48,097 bases of DNA, from the NCBI GenBank assembly GCA_017435615.1, contig JAFSET010000068.1, forward strand, positions 1-48,097. The letters run 5' to 3'. Each line of letters opens with the position of its first letter. The stretch's first letter is position 1. Below are positions 8,554 to 47,924 of the stretch, piece by piece. The stretch comes from Oscillospiraceae bacterium (GTDB taxonomy: Bacteria > Bacillota > Clostridia > Oscillospirales > Oscillospiraceae). The position numbers and the translations under genes are program-made. Under the pieces are notes generated by a model. It made no database searches. It was given only the letters and a program-made list of their open reading frames with translations, and was not told the DNA's origin.

Positions 8554-8616
8554 TTTCTGTCTCCCGTGCGGCATTTTTCTCACTGTGCGCCACGATATAA
8601 TTACTTCATTTTATAA

Positions 8617-8645
8617 ATTATAACACACGATCTGTCTGCCGTCAA
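8617..8645 (-). promoter_or_regulatory. Strong sigma-A promoter in front of cpsCD copy 1
   Basis: TTGACG (8645-8640), a 17-bp spacer and a perfect TATAAT (8622-8617) on the minus strand lie in the 139-bp gap between the two cpsCD genes. The distance to the start codon is about 64 bp. It would let cpsCD1, cpsB and the downstream genes be expressed separately from the biosynthetic genes. Confidence 0.8.
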
Positions 8646-8692
8646 TACGCAAACCCCTTCGGTTTTTACTCTTTTCCGGCAGTTTTGGCCTA

Positions 8693-10243: not shown

Positions 10244-11570
10244 AACGATCCTCCCTTGGAACCGATTGCGGGATCTGTTCCTGCTCAAGATACCGCATTG
10301 CGTCAAACATATACCACTGCAGCAGGAAAAATTCATCAAAGAACAGTGCATCAATGGCCATCCACGGCATAAATATACCAACCGCAAGAAGCAGTGTATC
10401 TATTTTATTCTTTCTTATTCTTCTGCCTTGATAGGCACCGCCGCGGAAAAAACTGATGCTCCAATACAACAAAAAAGGAATTCCCACGAAGCCAAACTGA
10501 TAGATGATTTGGATCAGTGTATTATGAGAGCCGCGGTCGTTTACCTTTACATTGGTAAGGCCCTTGCCAATGAAGAAGGTTTTCACATTTTTCAGAATGT
10601 CAGCGATATAGGATTGCCAAAGACCGGTTCTGCCTGTTGTAAAGCTGTCCAGGTCATTGGCGTAGGAAAAGCGGGTAGCCACGACCTCGATCAGTTCGCC
10701 GAAAAGGGCTGATGTGGCGACAAATGCCGCAAATATGATCACAACCACCAGCAGCACGACCTTCAGTGCTACTCTGCCCTTCATTCTCAGCAGGGCAATG
10801 CCCCACAGCACGACCATACAGGCCGTTACCAGAACAAAGGATTTTGACGCCGACAAAAAGCCGCAATAGATCAGCAAAACCAGCAGGCTCACCAAAACCG
10901 CGATGTGTCCGCGTTTTTGTTCCTTGAGCACCATCATCAGGCCGCCGCCCAGGGCTGCTGTGATCTGCGCGGTATAAAAGTTCGCGTCTCCGTAGAAACC
11001 GCTTCGGCGTGTAATGGTGGAGTAAGAGTCCACCCGGATATACTTTGCGATATTCGGGAACATATCAAAGCTCAGCGCACACAGCGCGGCGATGATCACG
11101 CCCAGGGAAAAAAACAGTACTACCTGATAAAAATCATAATTTTTGACGGTCCATTCCGCTTTCACCACGGGAAACAGCACGATCAGCATCATAAAAGCAA
11201 TGTAATCAAAGGAAATCATATATCCGTCGATCACCTTGGATACCAGGGTCAAAAACAGCAGCACGATACCTGCCACAATGGGATATTTTTTAAAGCGGAA
11301 GCGTTTTTTGATCACGCTGATGGCGCACACCAAAACCAACGCAAAGGTAAAGAAGGAATAACCGTCCGGGGAGGTTCTCAAAATTGGGGACCAGGGCAAA
11401 AAGAACAGCAGTACCGAGAGTGTGCAATTGTTGGAACAGCTCCATCCGACAAATACCAAAAACGCAGCCAGGCACAGCACGATCAGCAGCGTGCTGCCGA
11501 TGATCTGCGTCAGGCAAAGCAGCAGCACCAGCGCAACGCTAATGGCCAGATATGACTTTTTAATGGGCAT
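10236..11570 (-). CDS. Wzy/O-antigen ligase-like polysaccharide polymerase
   Basis: A 444-residue, very hydrophobic protein with roughly ten to twelve membrane segments and a large loop near residues 310-360 containing TTGRTGLWQSYIADI and GSHNTLIQIIYQFG. These are typical of the Wzy_C/O-antigen ligase superfamily. It is expected to polymerise repeat units on undecaprenyl pyrophosphate on the outer face of the membrane. It lies between the GT4 gene and the kinase genes and overlaps the latter. The ribosome site GGGGGAGGACA directly precedes the ATG. Polymerase versus ligase cannot be separated by sequence alone; the cluster context favours polymerase. Confidence 0.85.
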   Translation of the reverse strand: MPIKKSYLAISVALVLLLCLTQIIGSTLLIVLCLAAFLVFVGWSCSNNCTLSVLLFFLPWSPILRTSPDGYSFFTFALVLVCAISVIKKRFRFKKYPIVAGIVLLFLTLVSKVIDGYMISFDYIAFMMLIVLFPVVKAEWTVKNYDFYQVVLFFSLGVIIAALCALSFDMFPNIAKYIRVDSYSTITRRSGFYGDANFYTAQITAALGGGLMMVLKEQKRGHIAVLVSLLVLLIYCGFLSASKSFVLVTACMVVLWGIALLRMKGRVALKVVLLVVVIIFAAFVATSALFGELIEVVATRFSYANDLDSFTTGRTGLWQSYIADILKNVKTFFIGKGLTNVKVNDRGSHNTLIQIIYQFGFVGIPFLLYWSISFFRGGAYQGRRIRKNKIDTLLLAVGIFMPWMAIDALFFDEFFLLQWYMFDAMRYLEQEQIPQSVPREDRYG

Positions 11571-33568: not shown

Positions 33569-33922
33569 TTACTGCAGCGCATTATAAAGCTTCCGGATCG
33601 CCTTTTTTTCGATACGGGATACATAGCTGCGGCTGATTCCGGTGATCTGCGCCACCTCACGCTGCCGCCGGGGCGTACCGCCGCCCAGTCCGTAGCGCAG
33701 TACGATCACCTGCCGTTCCTGTTTTGTCAGGACTCGGTCCACCGCTTCGATCATTCTGCGAATACACTCACGCTCACTGATTTTCTCCAGCAGGTCCTCA
33801 TCCTGGGCCACCACATCCATCAGTGACAACGCCGCCCCGTCGTTGCCGGTTTCAATGTAATCCGACAGAGATACATCCTGGGCTGTCTTTTTCTGACTGC
33901 GGAAATACATCAGGATCTCATT
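33569..33922 (-). pseudogene. sigK: sigK 3' half (sporulation sigma factor K, C-terminal part)
   Basis: This frame encodes NEILMYFRSQKKTAQDVSL and ends with region 4 of a sigma-70 protein, including TQ-like QREVAQITGISRSYVSRIEKKA. Both segments match sigma-K (ENEILM...RALKK and GISRSYVSRIEKRA in Bacillus subtilis, recalled from family knowledge). The homology starts exactly at the AAT codon at 33922-33920. Upstream the same frame runs into the 3' end of the recombinase gene, so this half has no start of its own. In skin-bearing species the gene is rebuilt in the mother cell by excision, joining it to the 5' half. That partner here lies at 47606-47842. Confidence 0.9.
33918..33922 (-). other. 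Putative recombination core (att) AATGA at the sigK junction
   Basis: AATGA on the minus strand marks where sigK homology begins and where the recombinase gene ends; its TGA stop codon lies inside the core. The same pentamer in the same sigK codons (Asn-Glu) is the known crossover site of the B. subtilis skin element. No matching second site was found beside the sigK 5' fragment. Confidence 0.7.
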
Positions 33923-35675
33923 TGCTATCCTCTCCCCAAGGACTTTTAGAAACAGCATCGGTGTCATCTGCTGTATTGGCTTTCTCTGTGTCGTTGATCA
34001 GTTCCTTTATATCCGGAAATTCAATCTCCCCTTCATCTGCACCGAACAGTACCACATGGGCATTGACGCCGTCCCAGATCACCTTGCGGACAACCGTCCG
34101 GACAGATGCCCTTTTTTCTTCCAATGACATACCATCCACACAGGACCGAAAAACTGTCAACATCCGCAGCAGCGCATCAAACTCCACTGCACTCAAGCTG
34201 TTGGCATTGCCTACCTGTTCCAGCTCGCTGATTCGTGTTTTGATTTCTGCGTTCACATCACTTAACTGCTCAATACGGCTGAGCAGCCGGGGCTTTGCAA
34301 CAGAATCTGTTGCCATACCCAATGCATCGATCAGACCATTGATTGTCTTTTCGTTCTCCGAAAGCTCATGCCGAAGGTCATTCAGCTGCACCTCATGCTG
34401 CTCCCCGCTTTCTACAAAGCGCCGCCGGCCCTTTTCCAATTGTTGCACGAAACTGCTGTCATCTTCCGTCAATGCCTTTAGCTGCTCGAGAATCGCCGCA
34501 TCCAAAATATTACCATTGGCATTTCGACAGTTACACCGTTCCCGTTTGCTTCGTTCCTTCATCTTACATACGTAGGAATAGATGATCTGCCCATCAGCCG
34601 TTTTGCGCTGAGAAAGCTTGGGATACATCCGCTTGCCGCAAGAGCAGTATATCAGGCCGGTCAGCAACGCCTCATTACTTCGGGCCTTACGGTAGCCTTT
34701 CAATTTATTTCTCTCCAAAGACTCCTGTACTGCGATCCACTGCTTAGAGGGCACAAGCCCCGGATGCTTGCCAATGGCTATGATCCACTGATTCTCAGGC
34801 AGTAAAACCGTGGATTTTCCTTTTTCCTGATCTGTTCGATTGTACGCCATAATGCCATAGTTGCCGTCAAAGGCTTCTTTAGGAAAGCATACGTCTGCTT
34901 CTTTCTCTGTGAAATATTTATAGGCATCCGCATCTGCCACCATATACACCGGGTTCTGCAAAATTGCTTTGATGGCAAAGCGGGTAAAATCCTTCCCTTG
35001 CTTTGTTTTGACTCTGCGTCGAAGCAGTTCTGCTTCCACCGCCGTCAAAGAATCCGTTTCGGTGTACAGATCGAAAATCATTTTGGGGATCGCTGCTTCC
35101 TCAGGAATCGGTACAAGCTTATAGGCCTTTCGAACTTTTCCGTCTACAGTTTCTTTACTAACTGCCTCCGACCGAAAACCTGTCGGCGCATTTCCGCCCA
35201 ACCACCGTCCAGATTTTGCCAATTCATGCATATTATCCCTAATTCTTTCTGCGATCGTCTCTCGTTCAAGCTGTGAGAACACTGAGATAATGAACATCAT
35301 TGCACGCCCCATAGGCGTGCTAGTATCGAACTGTTCCCGAATCGATACAAATGATATATCCCTTCTAGTCAACTCATCGATCAAGCCGGTAAAATCACTG
35401 ATATTTCGGCTGATTCTATCCAGACGGTATACCACAATGGCTTTGAACTTATGCTGGCGGGCATCTGCCATCATCTTCTGAAAAGCAGGTCGCTTCAGAT
35501 TGCGACCGGAGAATCCTTCATCCTCGAACACCACACAGCAATCCACATACTCCTCGCCGAACATGTTTCGCACATAATCCTTGCACAGCTCCACCTGATT
35601 GCCAACACTATCCCCCATGCCCGTAAATTTTGACTTACGACTATATATTGCAATCATTTCCTGATTTTTCTGCAT
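33918..35675 (-). CDS. Large serine recombinase, SpoIVCA-like sigK element excisase
   Basis: A 585-residue protein. The N-terminal resolvase domain has IYSRKSKFTG with the catalytic serine, FEDEGFSGRNLKRPAF, VYRLDRISRN and FSQLERETIAERIRDNM. The recombinase domain follows (about 165-270), then a zinc-ribbon region (YCSCGKRMYP ... CNCRNANGN) and a C-terminal coiled coil (about 395-510). The size and domain order match large serine recombinases such as SpoIVCA, which excises skin to restore sigK. Its stop codon lies inside the att core and its 3' end overlaps the frame of the sigK 3' half. GGAGG precedes the ATG by seven bases. All catalytic motifs look intact, so the enzyme may be active. Confidence 0.93.
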   Translation of the reverse strand: MQKNQEMIAIYSRKSKFTGMGDSVGNQVELCKDYVRNMFGEEYVDCCVVFEDEGFSGRNLKRPAFQKMMADARQHKFKAIVVYRLDRISRNISDFTGLIDELTRRDISFVSIREQFDTSTPMGRAMMFIISVFSQLERETIAERIRDNMHELAKSGRWLGGNAPTGFRSEAVSKETVDGKVRKAYKLVPIPEEAAIPKMIFDLYTETDSLTAVEAELLRRRVKTKQGKDFTRFAIKAILQNPVYMVADADAYKYFTEKEADVCFPKEAFDGNYGIMAYNRTDQEKGKSTVLLPENQWIIAIGKHPGLVPSKQWIAVQESLERNKLKGYRKARSNEALLTGLIYCSCGKRMYPKLSQRKTADGQIIYSYVCKMKERSKRERCNCRNANGNILDAAILEQLKALTEDDSSFVQQLEKGRRRFVESGEQHEVQLNDLRHELSENEKTINGLIDALGMATDSVAKPRLLSRIEQLSDVNAEIKTRISELEQVGNANSLSAVEFDALLRMLTVFRSCVDGMSLEEKRASVRTVVRKVIWDGVNAHVVLFGADEGEIEFPDIKELINDTEKANTADDTDAVSKSPWGEDSK

Positions 35676-35701
35676 ATAAAAACCTCCTCTGTATTTGTTT
35701 A

Positions 35702-36259
35702 TTAGTCTTCTTTATTAAGATTTGTTTTTCGTTTATTCTCTGGGAAACGTGCATCTTTTGAAATCACCCAGTCTCTGCCAATCCGTATTGCACCGGGTAT
35801 TCGACTATTCTGATGAAGATACTGCTTTACCTGCTCCGGGCTTCTTTTATGTAATGCAGCATACTGCTGCGTGGAAAGCAAATTTGTTTCCGTGGTAACA
35901 CATTTATCCAGTTCCGTTGGGATTATTTCCTCGAATTCCTTTTCTAAAATCTGCTGGAGTAATGCACTGCAGTCGCAGTTTTTCAATGCAGAAGCATACT
36001 CCAATGCCGCAAAGACCGTCCGGGACAATACAAATCCAAATAATCCTTTATTATTATAATGTGTATACCGCTCCAAATACGCCCGAATTGCATCCGCACT
36101 TTGATTGGCTTCATAATCTACTTTGAGCAGCCTTTTAATCCGCTTTGCATCAGGATTATTGCTACGGTTGAACAGCGGTTTCAGTTCACTGATTGCTGCT
36201 GCTTCACTCTCCTGCAAATGCTCCGGCGCACATTCAAAAAGATATATAATCAAAGGCAT
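35702..36259 (-). CDS. Putative excisionase-like protein beside the recombinase
   Basis: 185 residues. The first 125 are helical and unrecognised. The last 55 (LSTQQYAALHKRSPEQVKQY, then GAIRIGRDWVISKDARFP) match the small winged-helix HTH seen in excisionases and MerR-like DNA-binding proteins. Large serine integrases need a recombination directionality factor for excision, and such factors are often encoded next to them. The location, 26 bp upstream of the recombinase and in the same direction, makes this the best candidate here. The gene overlaps the preceding one by 10 bp and has no ribosome site of its own, so it is probably translated by coupling. Confidence 0.6.
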   Translation of the reverse strand: MPLIIYLFECAPEHLQESEAAAISELKPLFNRSNNPDAKRIKRLLKVDYEANQSADAIRAYLERYTHYNNKGLFGFVLSRTVFAALEYASALKNCDCSALLQQILEKEFEEIIPTELDKCVTTETNLLSTQQYAALHKRSPEQVKQYLHQNSRIPGAIRIGRDWVISKDARFPENKRKTNLNKED

Positions 36260-37002
36260 ATTTTTTGGAATGGGTCAAGCATCGGGCATATTGGGCTCTC
36301 GATTTTCCAACATATAAGAAGTACTCCTCCCCTGCATACATTCCACTCTAACAAGCGATTCAAGTACCATATGATACCTGCAAGAATATAGTCTTCAATC
36401 AAAACAAACTCCTCTTTGCATCTGCGCCAGGGATAGAGTATTTGCACAGCTACATCCTGTCGATATCCGCTTGCACACATAATTGTCTGCACCCGTTCTA
36501 TCACATCCTCCACATCATAATCCTGCCACAAAGGCAATATAGTGTTTTTAGAAAGTCTTGTAAGCGCCATCATTTTGGTTTCAAGCAGATCCGCATAACG
36601 CTGGGACGGAGCTTTCTTTTTACAGCACCCGTATACATTCAAGCAATTTTTTGCCCAAAATACACTCACGGCATTGTCCGATTCTAATTTCCCCTGGAGA
36701 AAATCCATTGCTTCCCCCTCCCCTTTTTCCCAGTTTAGACGGCAGCCCAAAGCTTTTTTCAGTTTGTATAGTGCATCTTCATTCCATGCTATTGCACATT
36801 CTTCTTGCCAGTCAAAAATAAGCTGACCTAGATTTCTTTCCCGAACAAACAACTCTTCTTGCGTTGTTTGTCCTTCCATAAACCTGTGCACATCCCGTTT
36901 CGAACCAACGACGATTCGTTCTTGTTGTGTTTGCCGGTTTAGCGTCAGTGCCATCACAACCGGCTTCGTCTGCTCCAAAAATTTCTTATTTTTTCTAAAC
37001 AT
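36250..37002 (-). CDS. Unrecognised element protein
   Basis: 250 residues with a strong ribosome site (AGGAGG five bases before the ATG). No family is recognised. Visible features: a basic N-terminus (FRKNKKF), RQTQQERIVVGSKRDVHRF, a CCKKK cluster near 147, and a mostly helical, tryptophan-containing middle. The last 30 residues are rich in Cys, Ile and Leu, and the frame ends by overlapping the next gene by 10 bp. It is the first of a three-gene unit (this gene, HTH gene, recombinase), so a regulatory or accessory role in excision is possible but only inferred from position. Confidence 0.6.
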   Translation of the reverse strand: MFRKNKKFLEQTKPVVMALTLNRQTQQERIVVGSKRDVHRFMEGQTTQEELFVRERNLGQLIFDWQEECAIAWNEDALYKLKKALGCRLNWEKGEGEAMDFLQGKLESDNAVSVFWAKNCLNVYGCCKKKAPSQRYADLLETKMMALTRLSKNTILPLWQDYDVEDVIERVQTIMCASGYRQDVAVQILYPWRRCKEEFVLIEDYILAGIIWYLNRLLEWNVCRGGVLLICWKIESPICPMLDPFQKICL

Positions 37003-37074
37003 TTTGACCTCCTATATGTTGTAATTCTGTTTTTATTTTTTATTTTTCGAATTATTTCGCGTAACTCCATTTTA

Positions 37075-37090
37075 CCTTACGATCCTTACG
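37075..37090. promoter_or_regulatory. Direct repeats in the divergent intergenic region
   Basis: CCTTACG occurs twice with a 2-bp gap (37075-37081 and 37084-37090) in the 182-bp region between two divergently transcribed genes of the element. It could be an operator for a regulator of excision. No clear promoter pair was identified there. Confidence 0.25.
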
Positions 37091-37184
37091 TACGAGGTGC
37101 CGCTAATCCATATACACAACCGAAATATTCTGCTATTCTGTTCTTAAAGCAGCAACTACAAAAATTCTTTAAGGGGGTGTGATA

Positions 37185-37412
37185 ATGCGTCAAGCCGGCA
37201 AAGTTAATGTGATCGTATACGTGCCGAATACAACCGCTGGCCGCGATGCGTTATCACACCGCGTTGCGACGATTCACGCGAATGCAGTCATCTCGCGGCT
37301 TCAAAAACTTGCTTGCCCATCAGAACAAAAACTACTATTGCTGGATTCCGTCATTGCACAGTGTAAGCAACCGTTTAATGACAAATCATACAATCCCGAC
37401 CGTCTTATTTAA
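37185..37412 (+). CDS. Small protein of unknown function, divergent from the recombinase unit
   Basis: 75 residues (ATG at 37185, with AAGGGGG seven bases upstream). It is the only convincing plus-strand gene in the window. The start is MRQAGKVNVIVYVPN; the middle holds HRVATIHANAVISRLQKL and the motif CPSEQKLLLLDSVIAQC. The first part looks like a beta strand followed by helices. The protein is not recognised. It faces the recombinase unit across a region with direct repeats and is followed by a strong terminator, so it is an independently expressed gene. A control role in excision is a guess. Confidence 0.55.
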   Translation: MRQAGKVNVIVYVPNTTAGRDALSHRVATIHANAVISRLQKLACPSEQKLLLLDSVIAQCKQPFNDKSYNPDRLI

Positions 37413-37459
37413 AAGCAGTACCACTTGACTCAATCGCAACAATCCCATACATAACAAAA

Positions 37460-37497
37460 AGCGCACTCACCTACTGTAAAAAGTAAGTGAGTGCGCT
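37460..37497 (+). terminator. Terminator after the small plus-strand gene
   Basis: AGCGCACTCAC pairs with GTGAGTGCGCT, with further pairing of TACT and AGTA inside; ATTTT follows. It is 48 bp beyond the stop codon. The A-rich other side could serve minus-strand transcription as well. Confidence 0.8.
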
Positions 37498-37500
37498 ATT

Positions 37501-37635
37501 TTACGCATTCCGCAGCAACTCTTGCTCCAAGTGCTGCAACTTATCTTTCAGCCTGTTCCCGGTCTGTTTCGCCCGGCTGTCCGTCTGGCCATACGTCAGC
37601 AAAATATTGTGGTCACTTTTTCCAACAAGTAACAT
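37501..37635 (-). pseudogene. Short 44-codon frame, possible gene remnant
   Basis: A minus-strand frame from the ATG at 37635 encodes 44 residues, ending in NRLKDKLQHLEQELLRNA, a plausible amphipathic helix. There is no good ribosome site. It looks like the C-terminal leftover of a mobile-element protein or a very small gene. Nothing else is seen in the 300-bp gap 37413-37713 apart from the terminator. Confidence 0.25.
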
Positions 37636-37713
37636 TCAAGTCATTTGTATTATACCTTAGATCGACTCAAAAACAAATAATTATCGATTTCTGCAGTAAA
37701 CAAAATACTGCAA

Positions 37714-38070
37714 TTATTCTTTATATTTTGCCCAATCGTTTTCACGGAAGCCGACCAGTACAAAATCATCACCGATCAGCAGCGGACGCTTTACCAGCAT
37801 TCCGTCGGTTGACAAAAGCTGCAGCATTGCCTCCTCGGTCATGCCGGGCAGTTTGTTTTTCAGATCCATGGATTTATACAGCAATCCGCTGGTGTTGAAA
37901 AACTTCCGGATAGGCAAACCGCTTTTTGCGTACCACCCAGTCAGCTCCGAGAGAGTTGGATTCTCTGACTTAATATCCCGCAGTTCATATTGGATGTTGT
38001 TGTCATCCAGCCACTTTTTCGCCTTCTGACAAGTAGTGCACTTGGGATAGCAAATGAATTTCAGCATCAT
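37714..38070 (-). CDS. ArsC/Spx-family thioredoxin-fold protein
   Basis: 118 residues. A thioredoxin-like fold is indicated by FICYPKCTTCQKAKKWLDD (CxxC) and the C-terminal LVKRPLLIGDDFVLVGF, which is the ArsC/Spx/YffB signature. Members are either glutaredoxin-type arsenate reductases or Spx-like RNA-polymerase-binding regulators. The length and lack of other ars genes do not settle which; an Spx/YffB-like role is more likely. AGGAG lies six bases before the ATG. It is 38 bp downstream of hsdR and on the same strand, so it may be cotranscribed with the restriction operon or be an older chromosomal gene. Confidence 0.8.
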   Translation of the reverse strand: MMLKFICYPKCTTCQKAKKWLDDNNIQYELRDIKSENPTLSELTGWYAKSGLPIRKFFNTSGLLYKSMDLKNKLPGMTEEAMLQLLSTDGMLVKRPLLIGDDFVLVGFRENDWAKYKE

Positions 38071-38108
38071 ATCACACTCCTGATATATTTTGTTTGCCGG
38101 AATTGTTT

Positions 38109-41100
38109 CTATGCAGCTGTCTTATAGCGCATATAAATATACTCGTAAATCTCCTTACGGTAAGTAGTAATACTCAGTTCATCGTAGCTTTCCGGAAGTT
38201 CTGCCCAAAGGGTATCACGAATCAGATTGTCCACGATTGCTTTGGTTTCCGGCTTGTCGGCCCAGTGATCCAGTTCTGCAATCTTCGCCTTGACTTTTGC
38301 CAAAAGATCAACCGCAACCTTCTTAATCTGTGATATTTCCTGCTTTGTCAAGTTTTCCTTAAACAGCTTATCAAACATGGACAGTTCTTCATCGCTGGAA
38401 AAGCCTTCCCGGATATACCGCTTTTCTTCCTGTGTCAGATCCTGAGCAAGTTTTGTAAGCTCATCAAAGATTCGTTCAATTTCAGCCCGGTTCTTTTCCT
38501 CGTTGTATTCCTTAATGATGGTCTGATAGCGATCATAATAGTCCATACGGCCGGGGTTCCGCAGCAGCATCTGCTTGATGCGTTCCTCCACAAGGTCTGA
38601 CAGATCCTTAATAATCAGCTTTTTGTGTGCAGCCTTTGCAAATTCTTTACGCAGCAATTCAAAGTCAATTTTGGAAATATCAAATTGCTTGGATTCTGCC
38701 AACCCTAGTGAAACGGGTTCCAAAGTCAGATTCTCACTAATGATACGGTTGATCTCCACCATCAAATCAGTGTTGTCAGCATGCTTGCGTTTCAGCTGCA
38801 GTTCCTTGTAAATGGCAACAATGGCATCCCGATACTGCACCTGATCCTCTGTCAGTTCATCTCGCTGCAGATATTTCATCACACGGACGAGCTCGGAAGC
38901 ATAGGTTTGGAATTCCTTTTTATCTTCCATATTGCCGCAAACCGCATTTGCTCCGGACTTGATCAATGCCTGCTTGGCAAAATCTTTTGCAGCAACCAAT
39001 GCAGAAAGATCAAAACCCAACTCGTCAAGGAATGCGTTGGTCTGCCCAATCAGTTCCACAATACGGGCAATCAGCAGATCCTTATCTACTGTGGGATCCC
39101 CGCCGTCCTGACCGCCGACATTGGCCGTATAATCTGCCAGTGCCTTTCTAAGGGCCTTCACAATACCGATGTAGTCCACAATCAGCCCGTTGCTCTTTCC
39201 TTCAGCCACACGATTGGCACGGGCAATGGTCTGCATCAGTGTGTGGGCTTTCAAAGGCTTGTCCAAATACAAGCAGGAAAGGGTCTTTACATCAAAGCCA
39301 GTCAGCCACATGGCGCAGACGAATACGATCCGGAAGGGATTGGCGGAGTCCTTGAATTCCTTGTCCAGCTCCCGTTTTTCCATCTTGGCTCGGTGGGGCA
39401 GAATATCCAGTCCCCACTTCTTGAAGGTTTGGATCTCGTTCTGCTCCTGGCTGATTACCACAGCCATTTCCGTTTCTTTCAGCCAATGCAGCTTGCGCTC
39501 CAGTTCCTGGTATGCCTGTTGAGATGTGGTCTTCTTCAGGGCAGCTTCGGTTTCGGTAATCTTCTCTGCCCAGTATTTCTGTGCCAGGTTGTACATCCGC
39601 ACGCAAGTCACTTTGTTGAGACAGACGAACATAGCCTTGCCGGAAGTCCAAACATTGGTGTAATGCTCCACGAAATCCTTGGCGATTGCCTCCAAACGAG
39701 GCTCTGCCGTCAGCACATGGATCTCCTTGGCAAATTCCAGTTCCAGCTTTTCCTGTTGGTTTACATCCAAATCTGCCGCTTCAATGGCATCGATAATCTC
39801 CTGGGTGATTTCCGGATTTTTGATCGTTCCCAGTTTCTCACCACGGTTTTCGTAGTAAAGCGGCACAGTTGCGCCGTCATCCACTGCCCTCTTAAAGTCA
39901 TACACAGAGATGTAACCGCCGAAGGTGCGCTCTGTGATGGCATCATTGGAGAACAGCGGTGTGCCGGTAAAACCAATACGGGAAGCGGTGGGCAGCAATG
40001 CCACCATATTCTCCGCAAAGATACCGTATTGGCTCCGGTGCGCCTCGTCGGACATAATGATAATATCGTAATTGGGAGTGATGGGTTCTGCGTCGCGCTT
40101 GTTGAATTTTTGGATCAGTGTAAAGATGAAGCTGGGATTGCTTTTCAGCTTGCCGATCAAGTCCTCGCCACTTTGTGCTATGTACTTGGAGGCCTTTACG
40201 CCACCCAGCAGACCGCAGTTCTCGAAGGTGTCACTGATCTGCTTATTCAGTTCATCACGGTCGGTCAGCACCACAAATGTGGGAGAACCTTCAAATTTGC
40301 GGCGAATCTTCTGTGCCAGGAATAGCATAGAGTAGCTTTTACCGCTGCCTTGTGTGTGCCAAAATACGCCCAGTTTTCCGTTGCGCAGCTTGCGCTGCTT
40401 GTACACCTCCACCGCTTCATTGACGCCCAAATACTGATGGTTCCGGGCAAGGATCTTGGCGGTGCGGCCACCGGAGTGGTCATAGAGAATGAAATTCTCA
40501 AACAGATCCATGAAGTTCCGCTTGTTGCAGATACCCCGGAGCATGGTTTCCAGCGCAACGGAGCCTTCCTCATCTTCCTTCAAGCGTTTCCACTCATGGA
40601 AAAACTCATACTTACTGCCCAGTGTGCCTACCTTGGCTTCGTAACCATTGGAGAGCATCAAAAAGGCGTTGTAGTAAAATAAATGAGGAATGGTATCCAA
40701 ATAGTCTGTATAGTTGCAGGTGTAGGCATCCTGCACATCCACATTGTGGTTCTTCAGTTCCAAGAACATCAGCGGAATACCATTGACGAAACCAACGATA
40801 TCTGTCCGTTTGCGGTATAGTTCACCGTGGATCTTAAGCTCCTTGATGGCAAGAAAATGATTGTTCTCGGGATCGTCAAAATCAAAGACCTGCACCCGTT
40901 CTTGCTCGATCTTGCCGTTGGGCTTTTTCACCATCACCGGAATACCGTCCCGGAGATAGCCGTACTTTTCCTCGTTGATCTGCATCAAAGAAGCGGAAGC
41001 CAAATGATGCTCCAGCTTTCTGACCGCATCTTGATAGACTGCTTCCGTCAGCCAGGGATTCAGCTTGAACACAGCATCCTTGAAGTACCGCCAGAGCACG

Positions 41101-41249
41101 ATCTCCCGATAGTTTTTCCGACCAAAGGTGCCGTTTACGCCCAGCTTCTCCGTGTTGTAGGCATAGGAAACCTCCCAGCCCAGTTCATCGTGTAACAGAT
41201 GCCCTGCGCTCTCCTGGACTAATGTATTTTCGGAATATTCGTAGCTCAT
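38109..41249 (-). CDS. hsdR: Type I restriction enzyme subunit HsdR
   Basis: 1046 residues, full length for HsdR. The N-terminal nuclease domain shows the PD-(D/E)xK pattern: D150, E164 and K166 in DIVGFVNGIPLMFLELK. A superfamily 2 motor follows, with Walker A (GSGKSYSML), SDEAHRSQYG (DEAH box), RIGFTGTPLF and VFVCAMWLTGFDVKTL with QTIARANR. The C-terminal DUF3387-like helical region (about 790-1046) contacts the methyltransferase. HsdR translocates and cuts unmethylated DNA as part of an R2M2S1 complex. It is the last subunit gene of the operon, downstream of the HEPN-like gene by 18 bp. No frameshift is seen. Confidence 0.96.
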   Translation of the reverse strand: MSYEYSENTLVQESAGHLLHDELGWEVSYAYNTEKLGVNGTFGRKNYREIVLWRYFKDAVFKLNPWLTEAVYQDAVRKLEHHLASASLMQINEEKYGYLRDGIPVMVKKPNGKIEQERVQVFDFDDPENNHFLAIKELKIHGELYRKRTDIVGFVNGIPLMFLELKNHNVDVQDAYTCNYTDYLDTIPHLFYYNAFLMLSNGYEAKVGTLGSKYEFFHEWKRLKEDEEGSVALETMLRGICNKRNFMDLFENFILYDHSGGRTAKILARNHQYLGVNEAVEVYKQRKLRNGKLGVFWHTQGSGKSYSMLFLAQKIRRKFEGSPTFVVLTDRDELNKQISDTFENCGLLGGVKASKYIAQSGEDLIGKLKSNPSFIFTLIQKFNKRDAEPITPNYDIIIMSDEAHRSQYGIFAENMVALLPTASRIGFTGTPLFSNDAITERTFGGYISVYDFKRAVDDGATVPLYYENRGEKLGTIKNPEITQEIIDAIEAADLDVNQQEKLELEFAKEIHVLTAEPRLEAIAKDFVEHYTNVWTSGKAMFVCLNKVTCVRMYNLAQKYWAEKITETEAALKKTTSQQAYQELERKLHWLKETEMAVVISQEQNEIQTFKKWGLDILPHRAKMEKRELDKEFKDSANPFRIVFVCAMWLTGFDVKTLSCLYLDKPLKAHTLMQTIARANRVAEGKSNGLIVDYIGIVKALRKALADYTANVGGQDGGDPTVDKDLLIARIVELIGQTNAFLDELGFDLSALVAAKDFAKQALIKSGANAVCGNMEDKKEFQTYASELVRVMKYLQRDELTEDQVQYRDAIVAIYKELQLKRKHADNTDLMVEINRIISENLTLEPVSLGLAESKQFDISKIDFELLRKEFAKAAHKKLIIKDLSDLVEERIKQMLLRNPGRMDYYDRYQTIIKEYNEEKNRAEIERIFDELTKLAQDLTQEEKRYIREGFSSDEELSMFDKLFKENLTKQEISQIKKVAVDLLAKVKAKIAELDHWADKPETKAIVDNLIRDTLWAELPESYDELSITTYRKEIYEYIYMRYKTAA

Positions 41250-41267
41250 AGTAACACCATCCTATGC

Positions 41268-43103
41268 TTAGTGTTCAAATTTGTATGCAATTAGGTACGG
41301 ATCGGGGCCGAATAAATATGTTTGAAAATTATTTTGAGACAATTCTTCAGCTGTTTTCAGTTGCTCGTAGTGAATCTTGTTATCATTTTTTGCTTCAAAT
41401 ACAACAGCAGATGTACTTTCAATGTAATCACCGTTCTCAGATTTGCAAAGCATATAATTGACAACATAGTCAAAATAATTGTGAAGATGGTTAAGCGCGA
41501 TTTCAATACCAGTTACTTCTGCCCCTAAATGAGTAGCAATATTTCTTATTCTATGAAGTCTCTTTAATTGCCACTCAATGCGTTGCTTGTGCATTTCGAG
41601 ATATGCAGAGATATCCTTTCCGTTAGACAAACGTTTCCTTATATTATAAAGCCTAGATCTTAAGAGCGGATTATGAGGAAGTAGCATATATATGGATTTC
41701 ATTTCGTCAGAATCTTGCCCATGTATTGCAAAGAATTCAACAAATGATACAAAGTCAACAATTTCGTGCTTTGCTAATTCTGTTGAAAGCACCGCCTCTT
41801 CCAACTGCGCATATACTCCTCTCAAAACTTTAAGAAGATAGGTTTTTTGAATTATAGGCAACACACTATTTATTACATTATCGCGGACACCATTACTTGA
41901 ATAGTTTGCAAACAGGGTTTCCAACGCAGTCCAAAATGTACGGAATAATGTGAGTGTATTTCTTGAGTCAAATGCTTCTGAGTGCATTTCTATGGCACGC
42001 GTCAGCGAATAAAACGAGGATTCTCCCATGGCCTTTGCATTCAAAAGATTACTAATGCGCATATCAATCATATCTTGATTAACAAATGGTCTCTTTTGCA
42101 GTTTGTTGGGCAATCTAATTTCGCGATACCGGCCATCACTGCATTTCTGTAAAATAAGGAATACCTGTTTGGAAAAATAAAAATGTTTAAAATATCGAGA
42201 AAAAGTTTGTAAAAAGCGAATGTAGTCTGTAAATCTTATTGCTGCAATATACGGGTCCAATTCCCTATCTTTAAATCTTACAATTGCAATTTTTTCGTGA
42301 GATCCCTTGTGATTCATCTTGCTGTCATATTCTCGCAATAGTTTTTGTCCAGCATAATCTTTTTCTATTTCGGAGCGTTCCTTTTTTATATCTATTCTTT
42401 CAATTTGACGACTGAACACTAAGTTATCACTAATGCTGTCCATATATTCGATTGAATCAACATCCATCAGAATTAGAAATTCATATTCTTCTCTCTGGCA
42501 AGAAAATAATCGCAAAAATGCTTTGATTTGGTTTGAATTGTTGATAGCGTTTGCATCATTATTGAAAAATCGTTTTGCTGTAGTATATAGATATTCTCGT
42601 GCATATCCAATGTGCGTCAAGGTGATAAAGTAATTTTTTGTGCATGTGATTAATTTTTGTTTTTCGGTTGTTGTAGTAACTAACCGCACTATTTCTCTTT
42701 CATACATCTCGCGATATTTCCGCATAGAACAAGCTTGCTTGAACACGCTAATCCAACCTGATAAATGCGCATGAGTTGTTTTAGCTTCTTCAAACCCCGT
42801 ACGGATACTAAACAGCCGATCTCCAACAATTTTCTTGAAAATATAGTCTTTCTCGGTTTGATCTATAAACTCTTCTATAATCGGAGGTATGTATTTCGCA
42901 TAGTACTCATCCAACATATTATGATTATTGATAAGATCAAACACCTCTTCTATTTCGCGCAGTAATGTCACAACATTATGTTGAGGCAATGCATATGTGT
43001 CAGGAGTAACCTCACTTAATAATTCATCAGCACACTGATAGAACAAATAAAGCATTTCAAGCGAATCGGAATATTCCCAATTATTTGGAACTGTATTTAT
43101 CAT
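41268..43103 (-). CDS. HEPN-like protein embedded in the type I restriction operon
   Basis: 611 residues, unlike any Hsd subunit. Most of the chain is helical. Near the C-terminus, residues 516-530 read KRLHRIRNIATHLGA. R520 and H525 form an R-x4-H motif within a long helix, the signature of HEPN ribonucleases and of Apea-type HEPN domains. Earlier, TLFRTFWTALETLFANYSSN resembles the first HEPN helix. There is no Walker A motif, so it is not PrrC or RloC. The gene starts 3 bp after hsdS with GAGGTG upstream. Its base composition is clearly more AT-rich than hsdR, hsdM and hsdS, suggesting separate acquisition. An RNA-cleaving guard function is inferred, not shown. Confidence 0.7.
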   Translation of the reverse strand: MINTVPNNWEYSDSLEMLYLFYQCADELLSEVTPDTYALPQHNVVTLLREIEEVFDLINNHNMLDEYYAKYIPPIIEEFIDQTEKDYIFKKIVGDRLFSIRTGFEEAKTTHAHLSGWISVFKQACSMRKYREMYEREIVRLVTTTTEKQKLITCTKNYFITLTHIGYAREYLYTTAKRFFNNDANAINNSNQIKAFLRLFSCQREEYEFLILMDVDSIEYMDSISDNLVFSRQIERIDIKKERSEIEKDYAGQKLLREYDSKMNHKGSHEKIAIVRFKDRELDPYIAAIRFTDYIRFLQTFSRYFKHFYFSKQVFLILQKCSDGRYREIRLPNKLQKRPFVNQDMIDMRISNLLNAKAMGESSFYSLTRAIEMHSEAFDSRNTLTLFRTFWTALETLFANYSSNGVRDNVINSVLPIIQKTYLLKVLRGVYAQLEEAVLSTELAKHEIVDFVSFVEFFAIHGQDSDEMKSIYMLLPHNPLLRSRLYNIRKRLSNGKDISAYLEMHKQRIEWQLKRLHRIRNIATHLGAEVTGIEIALNHLHNYFDYVVNYMLCKSENGDYIESTSAVVFEAKNDNKIHYEQLKTAEELSQNNFQTYLFGPDPYLIAYKFEH

Positions 43104-43106
43104 TTC

Positions 43107-44291
43107 TTACACCTCGATTTCTCCGTTCATCAGTTTGGGGAGCAAGCGGTCACGAGCTTCGGCCAATGCGTGGTTTTGAAGTGCTAATGCCTTAATCCGG
43201 CGCGTAATAGTCCAAATAGTGTCCTCAAATCGCTGCCTCACACCCTCATCCGGTATCAAAACTGGGTATTTCTCCATCTGATTCCAATCCGCGCGAGGCA
43301 TCTTTGCGCCTTCTTTACAGGTTTGATAGGTATACTCCACAAATGCCTTATCGAATACTGTCATCAGAAGCAGGCCCCACAATCCCTGTTTTGCTACCAT
43401 AACAAAACTATCTGTAGACACGACACCACTATTGAGTGTAAAGCCAACCTTATGAAAGTAAGGTCTGATTTTGCCAAAGATAATGTCATTTTCGGCATAA
43501 CGGAATTTATTACTAGTAGCATCTTCCGCTGTTCCCCAATTTGAAAGACAAAAATCGACACGCGGCATATGCTCTAAGCCAATGTAAGGAGTATCAGCAG
43601 AAATCTTACTTGCAAGAACAGCATCCTTCTTCAAGTTACATATACTACCAACCGTACTTGCTATCCACCCTTCAGGGATGCCGTCGGTGATGGGAGTGGT
43701 TTCGTGGCTGGGGAAGCGCAGATCCACAAACCACTCTTTATACAGCCGCTGCGCTGCTTCCTCCAACAGCTTGATCTGCTTCTGGTTGTTTTCAATCAGG
43801 TCATCATATATGGACAGCATATCCGCTATTTTCTTCTGCACCTCAATAGGTGGAGCCGGAAAGAGTATTGTTGAAAGCTTTTCCCACGACAGATTATCCT
43901 GCGCCGCTCCTTGTGATATTTTCTTACAATTCTGTTGCAAAATATCGAAGCAGTACTTCACAAAACGGACATCTGCTACTCCCTCATAGGGGAGGAAGCC
44001 CATGACGCTATCGGGGAAACATGCATCAATCGCTAAAATACCAGTATCAGCAATGTTGGCTGCAATAGTTATGCATAACGTTCCAGGATGCCACAGTTTG
44101 CTCTGTGCTAAGCCTTTTTCGTTATAAGTAGTGTCATACTCCGTAATGTAGAAATTTGCATTCTTAACATCCGCAGTTTGAATAAACGGATAATCTCCAC
44201 CAAAAAGCGACGGATCATTGCGAGGCCTGTGCTTAGATCGACCACGAGATACCTCTCCCAGCTGGTCAAGTGTTTTGTATTCCCAAGTCAT
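43107..44291 (-). CDS. hsdS: Type I specificity subunit HsdS
   Basis: 394 residues with two target-recognition domains. TRD1 is about 1-150 (LGEVSRGRSKHRPR, FIQTADVKN, SQGAAQDNLS) and TRD2 about 200-355 (GSICNLKKDAVLASK, DIIFGKIRPYFHKVG). Each is followed by a long coiled coil (IADMLSIYDDLIENNQKQIKLLEEAAQRLY, in the first case more than 20 residues, and ITRRIKALALQNHALAEARDRLLP). HsdS reads the bipartite DNA target and holds HsdM and HsdR. The sequence recognised cannot be predicted. Its start overlaps the hsdM stop by 4 bp (ATGA). It is intact; no inverted repeats for phase-variable switching were noticed. Confidence 0.95.
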   Translation of the reverse strand: MTWEYKTLDQLGEVSRGRSKHRPRNDPSLFGGDYPFIQTADVKNANFYITEYDTTYNEKGLAQSKLWHPGTLCITIAANIADTGILAIDACFPDSVMGFLPYEGVADVRFVKYCFDILQQNCKKISQGAAQDNLSWEKLSTILFPAPPIEVQKKIADMLSIYDDLIENNQKQIKLLEEAAQRLYKEWFVDLRFPSHETTPITDGIPEGWIASTVGSICNLKKDAVLASKISADTPYIGLEHMPRVDFCLSNWGTAEDATSNKFRYAENDIIFGKIRPYFHKVGFTLNSGVVSTDSFVMVAKQGLWGLLLMTVFDKAFVEYTYQTCKEGAKMPRADWNQMEKYPVLIPDEGVRQRFEDTIWTITRRIKALALQNHALAEARDRLLPKLMNGEIEV

Positions 44292-46243
44292 AGTCCCATC
44301 TCCTTCATGTTTTTGGAGATGGTCTGCATCAGTTCATTGGATTCTGCCTGCAAGGTCAGCAATTCTCGGTGAATCTCGCCCATGCGCTGAGCAAAGTCCA
44401 CACCGTCATCCTCCACCGCAGCTACACCGACATAGGCACCGGGTGTCAGAGAATAATTCTTCTCGGCAATCTCTGCCCGGCTTGCCATCTTGCACAAACC
44501 GGGGATATCCCGATATTCGCCTTCACCGAATTTATCTGTTAGCCATTTCGCATCCAGAATAATCTGGCAAAGGTTCTCTACACCTTCAATGAAAATATCC
44601 AAGTCTGTTGCTAATCCGCGTTTATACTCTGCCAGGGTTTTTATTTCTTTGGCCTTGACAATTTCTTTTTGTGCATCCTTTTGCAGATTTGAAACATAAT
44701 TTGTCCATTTTTCAATTTGCCTTTTAGCAACAGTAATCGTATTGCGCAAATCATCAAGAAGCGGATACACAGCAAAAATATCCTGTGTTTCTTTGGATTT
44801 GTGGACAACAGAAAGAAGAAAAGAATTAAAGGAGATCACAAATTCGTTATCAACATATCCACCAAATACCGCACCTGCCCGAAGAACATAATCAATTTCG
44901 TTCTGAACCGCTCTATAGTATTCTCGGCACAGTTCTGCGTACTTCTCCACCTCGCCACGGTACAGCCACACGATGGCGTTCAGATTCTTCAGCTGCCACT
45001 CGCTCCACTCGTTGAGGGTACGATCCACTACGGTATAATAATTCCGGGCATCGATGAACAGCACATGATCTTGGATAGCTTCTGCCTTGCCCTTATCGAA
45101 GAACCAGATGGAGCAGGGCAGAGATTTGGTATAGAAGAAGTTGTTGCCTACGCTCATCATTACATCCACATGACCGGTCTCAACCAGTTTTTGACGGATA
45201 TCACGATCCTTACCGGAGCTGTCGGTGGCAGAGGATGCCATGATAAAGCCTGCCCGACCCTTTTCGTTCAGGTAGGCATAGAAATAGGAGATCCACAGAT
45301 AGTTGCCGTTGCCGAATTCCTTGGCAGCATTGATAGAAGGCAGACCAAAGGGCAGACGGCCTGCATTCATGGCAGACTCGGACTTGACCTTGTCCACATT
45401 AAAGGGCGGGTTTGCCATGACATAGTCGCAGCAACCCTCCAAAGAATGGGCATCGTTATAGAAGGTATTGGCTTCATTACCGGAGAGGATCTTGCCATTG
45501 AGGCCATGGACAGCCATATTCATCAAACACAGCTGGGCATTGTACTCCACTTTTTCCTGACCGTAGAAGGTCATAGCCGCATTGGCAGACATACCGTGGA
45601 GGTTTACAAAGTCACCGGTCTGCACGAACATACCACCGCTGCCGCAAGCAGGATCCAGCAGGATGCCCCGCTTGGGTTCCAGGACATTGACAATCATCTT
45701 GACCAGGGATTTGGGCGTGAAGAACACACCATCGTCAGATGCGATGTTCTTGGCGAATTTATTGAGGAAGTATTCGTAGATTCGACCCAGGATATCGCCG
45801 CCCACCTCATCCAGTGCGCTGTTATTGAAGATACGCAGCAGTTCGGAGAGGATCTCGTCGGTGAACATGGTGTAGTCCTTAGGCAGGACACCCACCAGCT
45901 GCTCGCTCTGCTCTTCAATCAGTTCCATGGCACGGTTCACAGCCTTGCCGATATCTGCACTCTCAGGCAGGTTCACAAGGTAGTCATAACGAGCCTCAGG
46001 AGGCAGGTACAGCGCGCTCTTTTCTGCAAAGTCGCTGGCTTCCACAGGCAGGACACGACCATTCCGGACAGGACGGTTCTTGAGAATTTCAGCCTCTACC
46101 AGTTTGAATCGACCATGGGCATAGCGCAGGAAAATCAGGCCCAACACAGGCATACAATATTGATTGGATGTCAGCTTGGAACCGGCACGCAATAAGTCCG
46201 CAGAATCCCAAAGTTCCGCTTCCAGTTTTCTAATGTTTATCAT
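44288..46243 (-). CDS. hsdM: Type I DNA adenine methyltransferase HsdM
   Basis: 651 residues. An N-terminal helical HsdM domain is followed by the methyltransferase core with motif I (LLDPACGSGGMF, SAM binding) and motif IV (NPPF at 278-281, N6-adenine class). The C-terminal third contains a long coiled-coil-rich extension, making it longer than many HsdM proteins. It methylates the target to protect host DNA and forms the enzyme core with HsdS. The ribosome site GAGGATAGAG precedes the ATG. It is 10 bp after the ATPase gene and coupled to hsdS. Confidence 0.96.
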   Translation of the reverse strand: MINIRKLEAELWDSADLLRAGSKLTSNQYCMPVLGLIFLRYAHGRFKLVEAEILKNRPVRNGRVLPVEASDFAEKSALYLPPEARYDYLVNLPESADIGKAVNRAMELIEEQSEQLVGVLPKDYTMFTDEILSELLRIFNNSALDEVGGDILGRIYEYFLNKFAKNIASDDGVFFTPKSLVKMIVNVLEPKRGILLDPACGSGGMFVQTGDFVNLHGMSANAAMTFYGQEKVEYNAQLCLMNMAVHGLNGKILSGNEANTFYNDAHSLEGCCDYVMANPPFNVDKVKSESAMNAGRLPFGLPSINAAKEFGNGNYLWISYFYAYLNEKGRAGFIMASSATDSSGKDRDIRQKLVETGHVDVMMSVGNNFFYTKSLPCSIWFFDKGKAEAIQDHVLFIDARNYYTVVDRTLNEWSEWQLKNLNAIVWLYRGEVEKYAELCREYYRAVQNEIDYVLRAGAVFGGYVDNEFVISFNSFLLSVVHKSKETQDIFAVYPLLDDLRNTITVAKRQIEKWTNYVSNLQKDAQKEIVKAKEIKTLAEYKRGLATDLDIFIEGVENLCQIILDAKWLTDKFGEGEYRDIPGLCKMASRAEIAEKNYSLTPGAYVGVAAVEDDGVDFAQRMGEIHRELLTLQAESNELMQTISKNMKEMGL

Positions 46244-46253
46244 ATCTCTATCC

Positions 46254-47507
46254 TCACATATCCAGGCTGTCTGCGTTCAACAGGAAGTCGTACACGCTGA
46301 TGACCAAAATACCGTCATCGGTATACCAGGGCGCAGGGGTATCCTTGACAACGATGACCTTTTTGAAGGAATCATCAATACGGAGCAGAGAATTGGTTTC
46401 CTGCTGCATTTTGGCATCGTCAGGAACCGCAAATGCGGACTGCACATAGTAGCGTTTGGCACCCTTGTTGCACACAAAATCCACTTCCAATTGTTTCTGC
46501 TGCCGGTTACCGGACTCGTCACAATCACGGGTTACAACCAAGCCCACATCTACATTGAAATCTCGTCCGATCAATTCGTTGAACAGTATGTTTTCCATCG
46601 TGTGGTTTTCTTCGATCTGACGGAAGTTGATCCGGGCATTTCGCAAACCCACATCGCTGAAATAATACTTTTGAGGGGTGTCAATATACTTTCTACCCTT
46701 TATGTCGTAACGGGTAGCTCTGGTGACAACAAAAGCATCACACAGATAGTCTAAATAACTCTTGACGGTATTGACACTGATCTTAATCCGTTTCTTGGTT
46801 TTGAAAGTGTCTGCCAGCTTTTTGGGATTGGTCAGAGAACCGATTCCGGAGGAGAGAATGTTGATCAATTCCTCAAATTCGCCCTTGTTGCGGATCTTAT
46901 GGCGACCAACAATGTCGTTGATGTATGTCTCGTCAAACAGCCGCTTCAGCAGCTCGATCTTTTGCTCCGGAGTGGGCAGAAGAACTACTGAGGGCAGCCC
47001 TCCGTACAGCACATATTCCTTCCAACCGTCGTATTTGTTTCCATCATAAACGGACATAAATTCCGCAAAGGACAGCGGGTTCATATGCAGTTCGTCGCCA
47101 CGCCCACGGAACTCGGTAATGATGTCCTTGGAAAGGAACTTCGCGTTACTACCGGTGACATATACATCCACATTGGGAATCCGCATAAAACCATTCAGTA
47201 CAGATTCAAATTCACCCAAAAGCTGCACCTCGTCCAGCAGAATATAGTACATCTGATCATCAGAGATTTGTGCTTTTATGTGGGGATACAGCACTTCCGG
47301 ATCCCGGAAATGCTTATTCTCAAAAGAATCAAAAGCAAGCTCGATAATATGATCCTCCGTAACGCCACTGGCACGCAGGTGCTGCTTAAACAAGGTAAAC
47401 AGAAGATAAGACTTGCCGCATCGGCGCATACCGGTAATGACTTTTATCAGTCTGTTATGTTTCTTTGCAATTAATTTTTGCAGATAATAATCACGCTTTA
47501 TTTCCAA
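46254..47507 (-). CDS. AAA ATPase with C-terminal DUF4143 domain
   Basis: About 417 residues. Walker A is GMRRCGKSYLL (near 27-37) and Walker B is MYYILLDEVQLL; ITEFRGRGDELHMNPLSFAEF follows, and the C-terminal DUF4143 region is about 200-340. The late sequence DCDESGNRQQKQLEVDFVCN resembles the nuclease-like (D-ExK) motif of this family. Such proteins are widespread in gut bacteria and of uncertain role. The start is taken as the TTG at 47507, eight bases after GAGG, giving the usual N-terminus MEIKRDYYLQKLI; a GTG at 47516 is the alternative. It heads the restriction operon, directly behind a consensus promoter. Confidence 0.85.
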   Translation of the reverse strand: MEIKRDYYLQKLIAKKHNRLIKVITGMRRCGKSYLLFTLFKQHLRASGVTEDHIIELAFDSFENKHFRDPEVLYPHIKAQISDDQMYYILLDEVQLLGEFESVLNGFMRIPNVDVYVTGSNAKFLSKDIITEFRGRGDELHMNPLSFAEFMSVYDGNKYDGWKEYVLYGGLPSVVLLPTPEQKIELLKRLFDETYINDIVGRHKIRNKGEFEELINILSSGIGSLTNPKKLADTFKTKKRIKISVNTVKSYLDYLCDAFVVTRATRYDIKGRKYIDTPQKYYFSDVGLRNARINFRQIEENHTMENILFNELIGRDFNVDVGLVVTRDCDESGNRQQKQLEVDFVCNKGAKRYYVQSAFAVPDDAKMQQETNSLLRIDDSFKKVIVVKDTPAPWYTDDGILVISVYDFLLNADSLDM

Positions 47508-47560
47508 TGTAACCACCTCGGTGAAAATATATTGCCAAATGCCACTGTTTTTTCAATAGT

Positions 47561-47589
47561 ATTATACCCATTACACAATAAAAAGTCAA
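47561..47589 (-). promoter_or_regulatory. Consensus sigma-A promoter of the restriction operon
   Basis: TTGACT (47589-47584), a 17-bp spacer and a perfect TATAAT (47566-47561) on the minus strand, 54 bp before the ATPase start. It lies about 70 bp inside the right end of the element, so the cargo does not depend on transcription from sigK. Confidence 0.85.
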
Positions 47590-47605
47590 ACATATATTGA
47601 GAATT

Positions 47606-47842
47606 TCATGCCTGTTGGCAGCAAATTTTCAATAGTCTTTGATTAGTCCAATGGTTCCTAATGTAGGCTACCAATCGCAGATTGCGTTCGATCAGTATGT
47701 TCCGGGCATCAATATCCCCTTGAGCGGAAAGGGCCAAATATTGGGTTTCTTCCTCTTTCGTCAAAGGTTTGGGGAAGCTGCCGGTTTGCAGCTGCAGGGC
47801 GTACATCAAGCCGCTGAGCATCAGCCATACTGCGGCGATCAT
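47606..47842 (-). pseudogene. sigK: sigK 5' fragment (N-terminal part of sigma-K)
   Basis: Starting at the ATG at 47842 (GGAGG eight bases upstream), the first 61 codons encode a hydrophobic N-terminus and SFPKPLTKEEETQYLAL, then GDIDARNILIERNLRLVAYI. This matches sigma-K up to the start of region 2. After the ATT codon at 47662-47660 the frame runs into unrelated sequence for 17 codons and stops. Sigma-K should continue for about 46 codons (including the region 2 core) before the crossover codons Asn-Glu; those are missing. The hydrophobic start resembles a pro-sequence as in B. subtilis pro-sigma-K. Confidence 0.88.
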
Positions 47843-47924
47843 ACATACCACCTCCACCATCTCCCCTATTCACCCCGGCAAGTCCATTTTCCAACAATAC
47901 TCATAATGTTTGCTTTATAAAATT

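Follow-up and report, generated by a model that had tools for sequence, protein, structure and literature searches.

The stretch of DNA analysed here, referred to below as the window, is 48,097 nucleotides long and constitutes the entire contig C58 (JAFSET010000068.1) of a metagenome-assembled genome (MAG) of an Oscillospiraceae bacterium that is 77 % complete (the window genome, G000 in our numbering), and it carries both ends of sigK, the gene for sigma-K. Skin elements, as described in PMC5025042 and PMC13141910, encode a large serine recombinase (LSR) within the element, and their excision reconstitutes sigK. In the genus of the window genome, taken as Faecousia, which NCBI assigns to the Oscillospiraceae, sigK very probably has two fixed insertion sites of this skin type, each with its own recombinase (LSR-1 and LSR-2), and lies in some species in three pieces that would be rebuilt by the two recombinases. 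The window genome itself displays most marks of this arrangement, the window holding exon 1, LSR-2 and exon 3, and a second contig, C97, holding LSR-1 and exon 2 together with the left arm of a site-2 element. A first-pass annotation of the window had proposed one skin element between two sigK halves, with a type I restriction-modification (RM) system as its cargo; since 46 codons of sigK are missing from the window and present on C97, this single-skin reading fails.

The first-pass annotation was right that the two frames are opposite ends of SigK. Using the joined SigK as a tblastn query, the window gave matches with E-values of 1e-40 at exon 1 (positions 47657-47860, minus strand), the N-terminal part ending in ...LRLVAYIR, and of 7e-73 at exon 3 (33569-33922, minus strand), the C-terminal part beginning with NEILMYFRSQ. 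The same query against 59 other genomes found whole SigK genes as best matches, at up to 81 % identity, and recovered whole genes along with several split types inside one genus. Exon 3 alone matched sigK copies at up to 80 % identity and other sigma factors at only about 35-43 %, and the exon 1 of the window is the sole sigK-like exon 1 in its genome, the second match being a different sigma factor. An origin of the window frames from unrelated sigma factors was ruled out by the SigK matches and the identity gap at exon 3.

The expected alignment to SigK held for the N- and C-terminal parts and broke down in between, as the two frames leave a gap in SigK; the 46 codons (KKYY...CVEN) that make up most of sigma region 2 lie outside the window. 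A search with the Pfam domain Sigma70_r2 gave 11 matches in the window genome. None falls within the window, and one is on C97 (C97:1124-1270), where exon 2 is intact, with 46 codons and no stop; exons 1 and 3 are likewise open. On C97, exon 2 is preceded by the C-terminal two thirds of LSR-1, which is cut by the contig end, and the DNA that follows exon 2 is foreign, being the left arm of a site-2 (LSR-2-type) element. Searching the assembly with PF07508 returned two recombinases only, LSR-1 and LSR-2. Concealment of exon 2 within the window was also considered and rejected, the joined-SigK tblastn search having given no match there.

Comparison of intact with split genes placed site 1 at atcatgAAaaagtac (core AA), after the codon ATG of ...LVAHIM, and site 2 at gtggaAATgagatc (core AAT), inside ...CVEN/EILM, the two sites being unlike in core and arms. 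Site 2 contains AATGA, which is the core of the Bacillus subtilis skin element. The 136 genomes of the genus were searched with exons 1, 2 and 3 separately and classed by the adjacency of the pieces, and among the matches listed in these searches sigK pieces outrank other sigma factors. Relatives with an uninterrupted sigK, to which the first-pass annotation had pointed for comparison, do exist, an intact copy being present in 75 of the 136 genomes. The gene is split at one or both sites in 31 genomes, namely at site 1 only in 9, at site 2 only in 15 and at both sites, with exon 2 standing alone, in 7 (G000, G062, G142, G020, G145, G150 and G152). Three genomes (G033, G031 and G151) have exons 1 and 3 without exon 2, three have exon 1 only and two exon 3 only, and 22 have no sigK piece, for example G002, which is 98 % complete; such sigK-less genomes may reflect incompleteness or loss of sporulation. 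G023 (intact) and G035 (split at site 1), whose SigK proteins are identical over 212 aligned residues and whose DNA is about 97 % identical, represent the empty and the filled state of site 1.

Each site is paired with its own recombinase. Where the start of exon 2 adjoins element DNA, LSR-1 runs into exon 2 in 17 of 17 junctions, and where the start of exon 3 does so, LSR-2 (39-100 % identity) lies at most 150 bases upstream in 16 of 22. Of the remaining six exon 3 junctions, three are no more than about 230 bases away from a contig end; in G011 a different recombinase (31 %, opposite strand) occupies the left end, in G089 LSR-2 lies about 11 kb upstream of exon 3, and in G018 no LSR-2 was found in the 7.8 kb before exon 3. 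Counting matches of at least 230 residues and at least 52 % identity, LSR-1 is present in 19 genomes, comprising all 9 split at site 1 only, all 7 doubly split, two with exon 1 only (G128 and G005), and G132, which has a second, split sigK copy; three shorter fragments (G066, G137 and G147), of which two come from genomes whose sigK is intact, were left uncounted, and further matches fall to 43 %. LSR-2 at 50 % identity or more occurs in 18 of the 136 genomes including the window genome, none of which has an intact copy, and the next match, in G011, is at 33 %.

The six pattern matches to LSR-2 in the viral collection yielded no confirmed case. In a collection of genome contigs LSR-2 relatives were found at 29 loci, all 29 of which were searched for sigK pieces, and the split at site 2 was seen also in Anaerovorax odorimutans (L157) and in an uncultured Clostridium MAG (L156). 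Four LSR-2-like loci of Clostridioides difficile (38.8-39.3 % identity) showed no sigK piece in the stretch examined, and therefore give no evidence for a shared skin.

Some particulars of the junctions deserve mention in their own right. On C97 the LSR-1 frame crosses the attachment site into exon 2 (L009, G000:C97, 1124-1163), its last residues being read in a different frame, and in the window the stop codon of LSR-2 overlaps the site-2 core (33918-33922). In G018, an LSR-2 gene lies about 1 kb past exon 1+2 (L060, G018:C8, 5332-8428) and exon 3 is on another contig (L061, G018:C25), an arrangement that possibly represents stacked elements. Extra copies of exon 1 were also encountered. G152 has two protein-identical copies on one contig (L132, G152:C24, 6049-6255 and 10520-10726), with starts about 4.5 kb apart, a site-1 arm after each, and a window-like ATPase and a pRiA4-type protein between them; in G144 a displaced exon 1 that bears a site-1 arm precedes an intact sigK by about 9 kb (L135, G144:C1, 15853-16062); and single extra copies occur in G121 and G147.

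The order of the pieces was read from relatives. One 27.5-kb contig (G145:C11) carries, on one strand, LSR-1 and exon 2, then a 20-kb element that ends with LSR-2, and then exon 3. On two others (G062:C68 and G142:C26), exons 1 and 2 are separated by an element that ends with LSR-1, and exon 2 is followed by the site-2 left arm. Together, these overlapping contigs give the order exon 1, element, exon 2, element, exon 3. The same passage from LSR-1 through exon 2 into the left arm of site 2 recurs on a metagenomic contig of a viral catalogue (L195, IMGVR_UViG_3300010163_002043, 8199-10294). Joining exon 1 to exon 2 to exon 3 is codon-exact and free of stops in each of the five doubly split genomes that yielded all three exons (G062, G020, G150, G152 and G000), so that in the genus the element ends, with cores AA and AAT, are cognate and on joining restore the frame, and the corresponding empty sites are present in the 75 genomes with an intact copy.

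Exon 2 is under purifying selection. Among the doubly split genomes, its ratio of non-synonymous to synonymous substitution rates (dN/dS) is 0.00-0.11 in the 17 of 21 pairs for which it could be calculated, values that are rough, as four pairs were saturated and dS exceeded 1 in many. These low ratios indicate that exon 2 has been kept as coding sequence despite being cut off on both sides. The ratio is looser for the second sigK copy of G132 (0.10-0.27); against the window genome it is 0.16-0.25 for exon 3 and 0.095 for exon 1, the latter in the two of five pairs that were calculable. Changes of state at each site were counted by the Fitch method on a SigK tree with 61 rows, made up of 2 outgroups and those 59 of the 136 genus genomes for which loci and a minimum of 140 residues were available; a genome that has exons 1 and 3 but not exon 2 was scored as split at both sites. 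On this single short-protein tree, site 1 required 12 changes, where shuffling gave a mean of 15.6 (P 0.022), and site 2 required 16, where it gave 15.7 (P 0.68), the latter showing no tree signal.

In the proposed model, LSR-1, which abuts exon 2, would act at site 1, and LSR-2, which abuts exon 3, would act at site 2, so that in doubly split species exon 2 would form an island between two mobile elements. By analogy with skin biology, each recombinase would excise its own element in the mother cell during sporulation; the two excisions would join exons 1, 2 and 3 in frame, and sigma-K would be made only once both were done. It is likely that in some endospore formers sigma-K is held under a two-key lock, late gene expression having to wait until two independent recombinases have each acted in the mother cell. 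If the model is right, a developmental gene of a spore former may be split by more than one element, and activating sigma-K can require two distinct rearrangements of the DNA. With empty, singly filled (at either site) and doubly filled states in one genus, some of them in near relatives, Faecousia is naturally suited to testing how elements of this kind are acquired, maintained and lost.

Several observations weigh against this model. No single contig carries three exons and both elements, and the order was pieced together from overlapping halves in different species. Exon 1 is not in the assembly in 4 of the 9 genomes split at site 1 only, nor exon 3 in 4 of the 15 split at site 2 only, and all three exons were found in five of the seven doubly split genomes, G142 being without exon 3 and G145 without exon 1. 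In recombinase-rich genomes, only about the best 9-10 first-look candidates were scored. In the window genome, a MAG of limited completeness, the sigK pieces are on two unlinked contigs, and a search of the rest of that genome did not recover the N-terminal third of LSR-1. The exon 1 junction of the window is without the site-1 arm, and the end of its exon 1 has changes from H to Y and from M to R at positions conserved in relatives. Lastly, no exon 2 was found in G033, where exons 1 and 3 share a contig of 2.4-fold coverage and are separated by 44 kb.

The window contig is itself anomalous. Its sigK is interrupted, with the N- and C-terminal parts on either side, and a recombinase gene adjoins one end of the interval: LSR-2 (33918-35675, minus strand; Resolvase, Recombinase and Zn_ribbon_recom domains), with its stop codon in the exon 3 junction, abuts the 3' part of sigK, just as the first-pass annotation had stated. 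The right end is a normal attR (right attachment site) of site 2, the core AAT lying at 33922-33920. The left junction (47633-47656, minus strand) occupies the site-1 position without the element arm that relatives have there. With a weight matrix built from 13 of the 15 other exon 1 junctions (one was too short and one duplicate was omitted), it scored -27.5, as against 12.3 to 32.0 for the 13 source arms and a median of -24.8 over the plus strand of the window. The interval thus has no cognate pair of left and right attachment sites (attL and attR) that restores the frame, its armless left end being at site 1 and its right end at site 2, with 46 codons missing. Because the left junction is without the arm, C58 is read as rearranged or misassembled, and the RM operon can for that reason not be called the cargo of one excisable skin; it can be assigned to neither element in particular. 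A contig with two sigK ends, it should be cautioned, need not be one skin element.

The explanation of C58 to which we lean, with modest confidence, is a misjoin, in which its left part comes from the site-1 element and its right part from the site-2 element, the middle (what remains of element 1, then LSR-1 and exon 2, then the left portion of element 2) being accounted for by C97 and unassembled DNA. C97 holds exactly the piece demanded by the canonical order, which is seen in relatives, and carbohydrate-related cargo in the elements of relatives resembles that of C97; the incomplete state of the MAG also fits. However, the RM operon is tightly spaced from the ATPase to arsC, so that a misjoin would be confined to the operon edges, and a simple misjoin within the element does not account for the unusual exon 1 junction.

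A second explanation, possible and in our judgement less probable, is that C58 is genuine and derived: exon 2 would have been removed from the locus and the site-1 junction destroyed when the two elements underwent a deletion or rearrangement, leaving a strain that makes no sigma-K, or else the bin mixes deleted and undeleted strains. The absence of the site-1 arm and the two non-synonymous differences at the end of exon 1 would fit such a history, as would the similar topology in G033, and the 22 of 136 genomes without a sigK piece indicate that loss may occur, incomplete assembly explaining some of them. Against this stands the state of the gene in the window genome, where exon 2 is intact and conserved and exons 1 and 3 are open.

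It is highly improbable that exon 2 truly resides at a distant locus and that two crossovers exchange the 13.7-kb cassette for it: such an exchange fits both contigs literally, exon 2 on C97 being flanked by a site-1 attR and a site-2 attL, but the required site-1 attL is absent from the window and the canonical order holds in relatives. Hardly any credence is left for a single 13.7-kb skin with type I RM cargo excised in one step, which draws on exons 1 and 3 sharing a contig and strand and on LSR-2 abutting exon 3, since one excision cannot rebuild sigK when 46 codons of region 2 would be missing, and the two ends belong to different sites, unlike in core and arms, with no site-1 arm at the left.

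Turning from the window contig to known systems, the splitting of sigK by skin-type elements is itself known, and what is new in the three-piece model is a sigK with two skin sites and three pieces. The skin elements of B. subtilis and C. difficile are described with one element and two gene parts, whereas in Faecousia there are two sites with a recombinase family for each, and several species have the gene in three parts. PMC5025042 and PMC13141910 place the C. difficile recombinase immediately upstream of the 3' part of sigK and give the B. subtilis core as five nucleotides only. PMC5025042 treats the skin element as exceptional in clostridia; by contrast, 31 of the 136 Faecousia genomes are split at one or both sites. 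Among the titles and abstract openings listed in searches of open-licence PMC papers, preprints excluded, on sigK elements, split sigK and Faecousia sporulation, none concerns a three-part sigK.

Other developmental genes are cut in a comparable manner. As far as their abstracts describe them, SP-beta in spsM, gin in gerE and yin in yabG likewise interrupt spore genes, with spsM and gerE rejoined during sporulation, and have one element per gene, as against two in Faecousia sigK. The heterocyst elements of cyanobacteria (nifD, hupL and fdxN) also cut developmental genes and are excised in a specialised cell type, and multiple elements are reported by PMC4874684 in 10 of 87 interrupted genes, with four in one nifD; they differ from Faecousia sigK in cell type, gene and lineage.

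As to the cargo, the first-pass annotation had listed an ATPase, hsdM, hsdS, a HEPN protein and hsdR, and all but one of these labels stand. The operon, on the minus strand, comprises an AAA_14/DUF4143 ATPase (46254-47516; Pfam, and PDC-S01 in PADLOC), the methyltransferase gene hsdM (44288-46243; N6_Mtase 6e-75 and HsdM_N, MTase_I in PADLOC at 2e-290), the specificity subunit gene hsdS (43107-44291; Methylase_S 5e-22, Specificity_I in PADLOC) and the restriction subunit gene hsdR (38109-41249; HSDR_N 1.5e-38 and SWI2_SNF2, REase_I in PADLOC at 5.5e-154), so that HsdR, HsdM and HsdS of a type I system occur together in the window. The HEPN label belongs to a 611-residue protein (41268-43103) with no Pfam or PADLOC match, which is left unassigned to a family. 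Given the non-cognate ends, the further claim of a defence island riding in one skin is unsupported for this contig.

The first-pass annotation had also held that finding the same genes outside any sigK locus in close relatives would speak against it, and this is partly the case. Among the 135 other genomes, HsdM relatives with E-values of 1e-100 or better are fragments in two, G113 (G113:C92 and G113:C65, 97/95 % identity) and G151 (G151:C88 and G151:C1, 90/86 %). The G151 fragments are off the contigs that carry its sigK pieces and G113 is without any sigK piece; the RM cassette, probably a mobile one, therefore does not look tied to sigK. Defence cargo is one kind among several in a sample, rather than a survey, of 20 chosen open reading frames (ORFs) from six genomes, which included glycoside hydrolases (G139), an ABC transporter (G062), a polysaccharide gene set (G094), a solute-binding protein and a TOTE-type primase-helicase (G145), a YhcG nuclease (G033) and a pRiA4-type protein (G152). 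Genes for GH20, GH38 and solute transport are carried by C97.

The remaining features of the interval lie between the RM operon and LSR-2. An ArsC-family protein (37714-38070, minus strand; Pfam ArsC 3.5e-15) is followed by a small conserved ORF of 77 residues on the plus strand (37179-37412) and by two minus-strand ORFs, one between the small ORF and LSR-2 (36250-37002) and one directly upstream of LSR-2 (35702-36259), neither of which has a Pfam match or a relative among the compared loci. Elsewhere, the window genome encodes SpoIVA. The 77-residue ORF, although without a Pfam or PADLOC match, has tblastn matches in site-2 elements of relatives, at 4e-12 or better in the loci of seven genomes (G001, G018, G062, G094, G142, G145 and G150) and weakly in an eighth (G152, 8e-5). 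The C. difficile skin has a recombination directionality factor, CD1234; the conserved 77-residue ORF is a candidate for its counterpart in Faecousia, as a directionality factor or partner of LSR-2.

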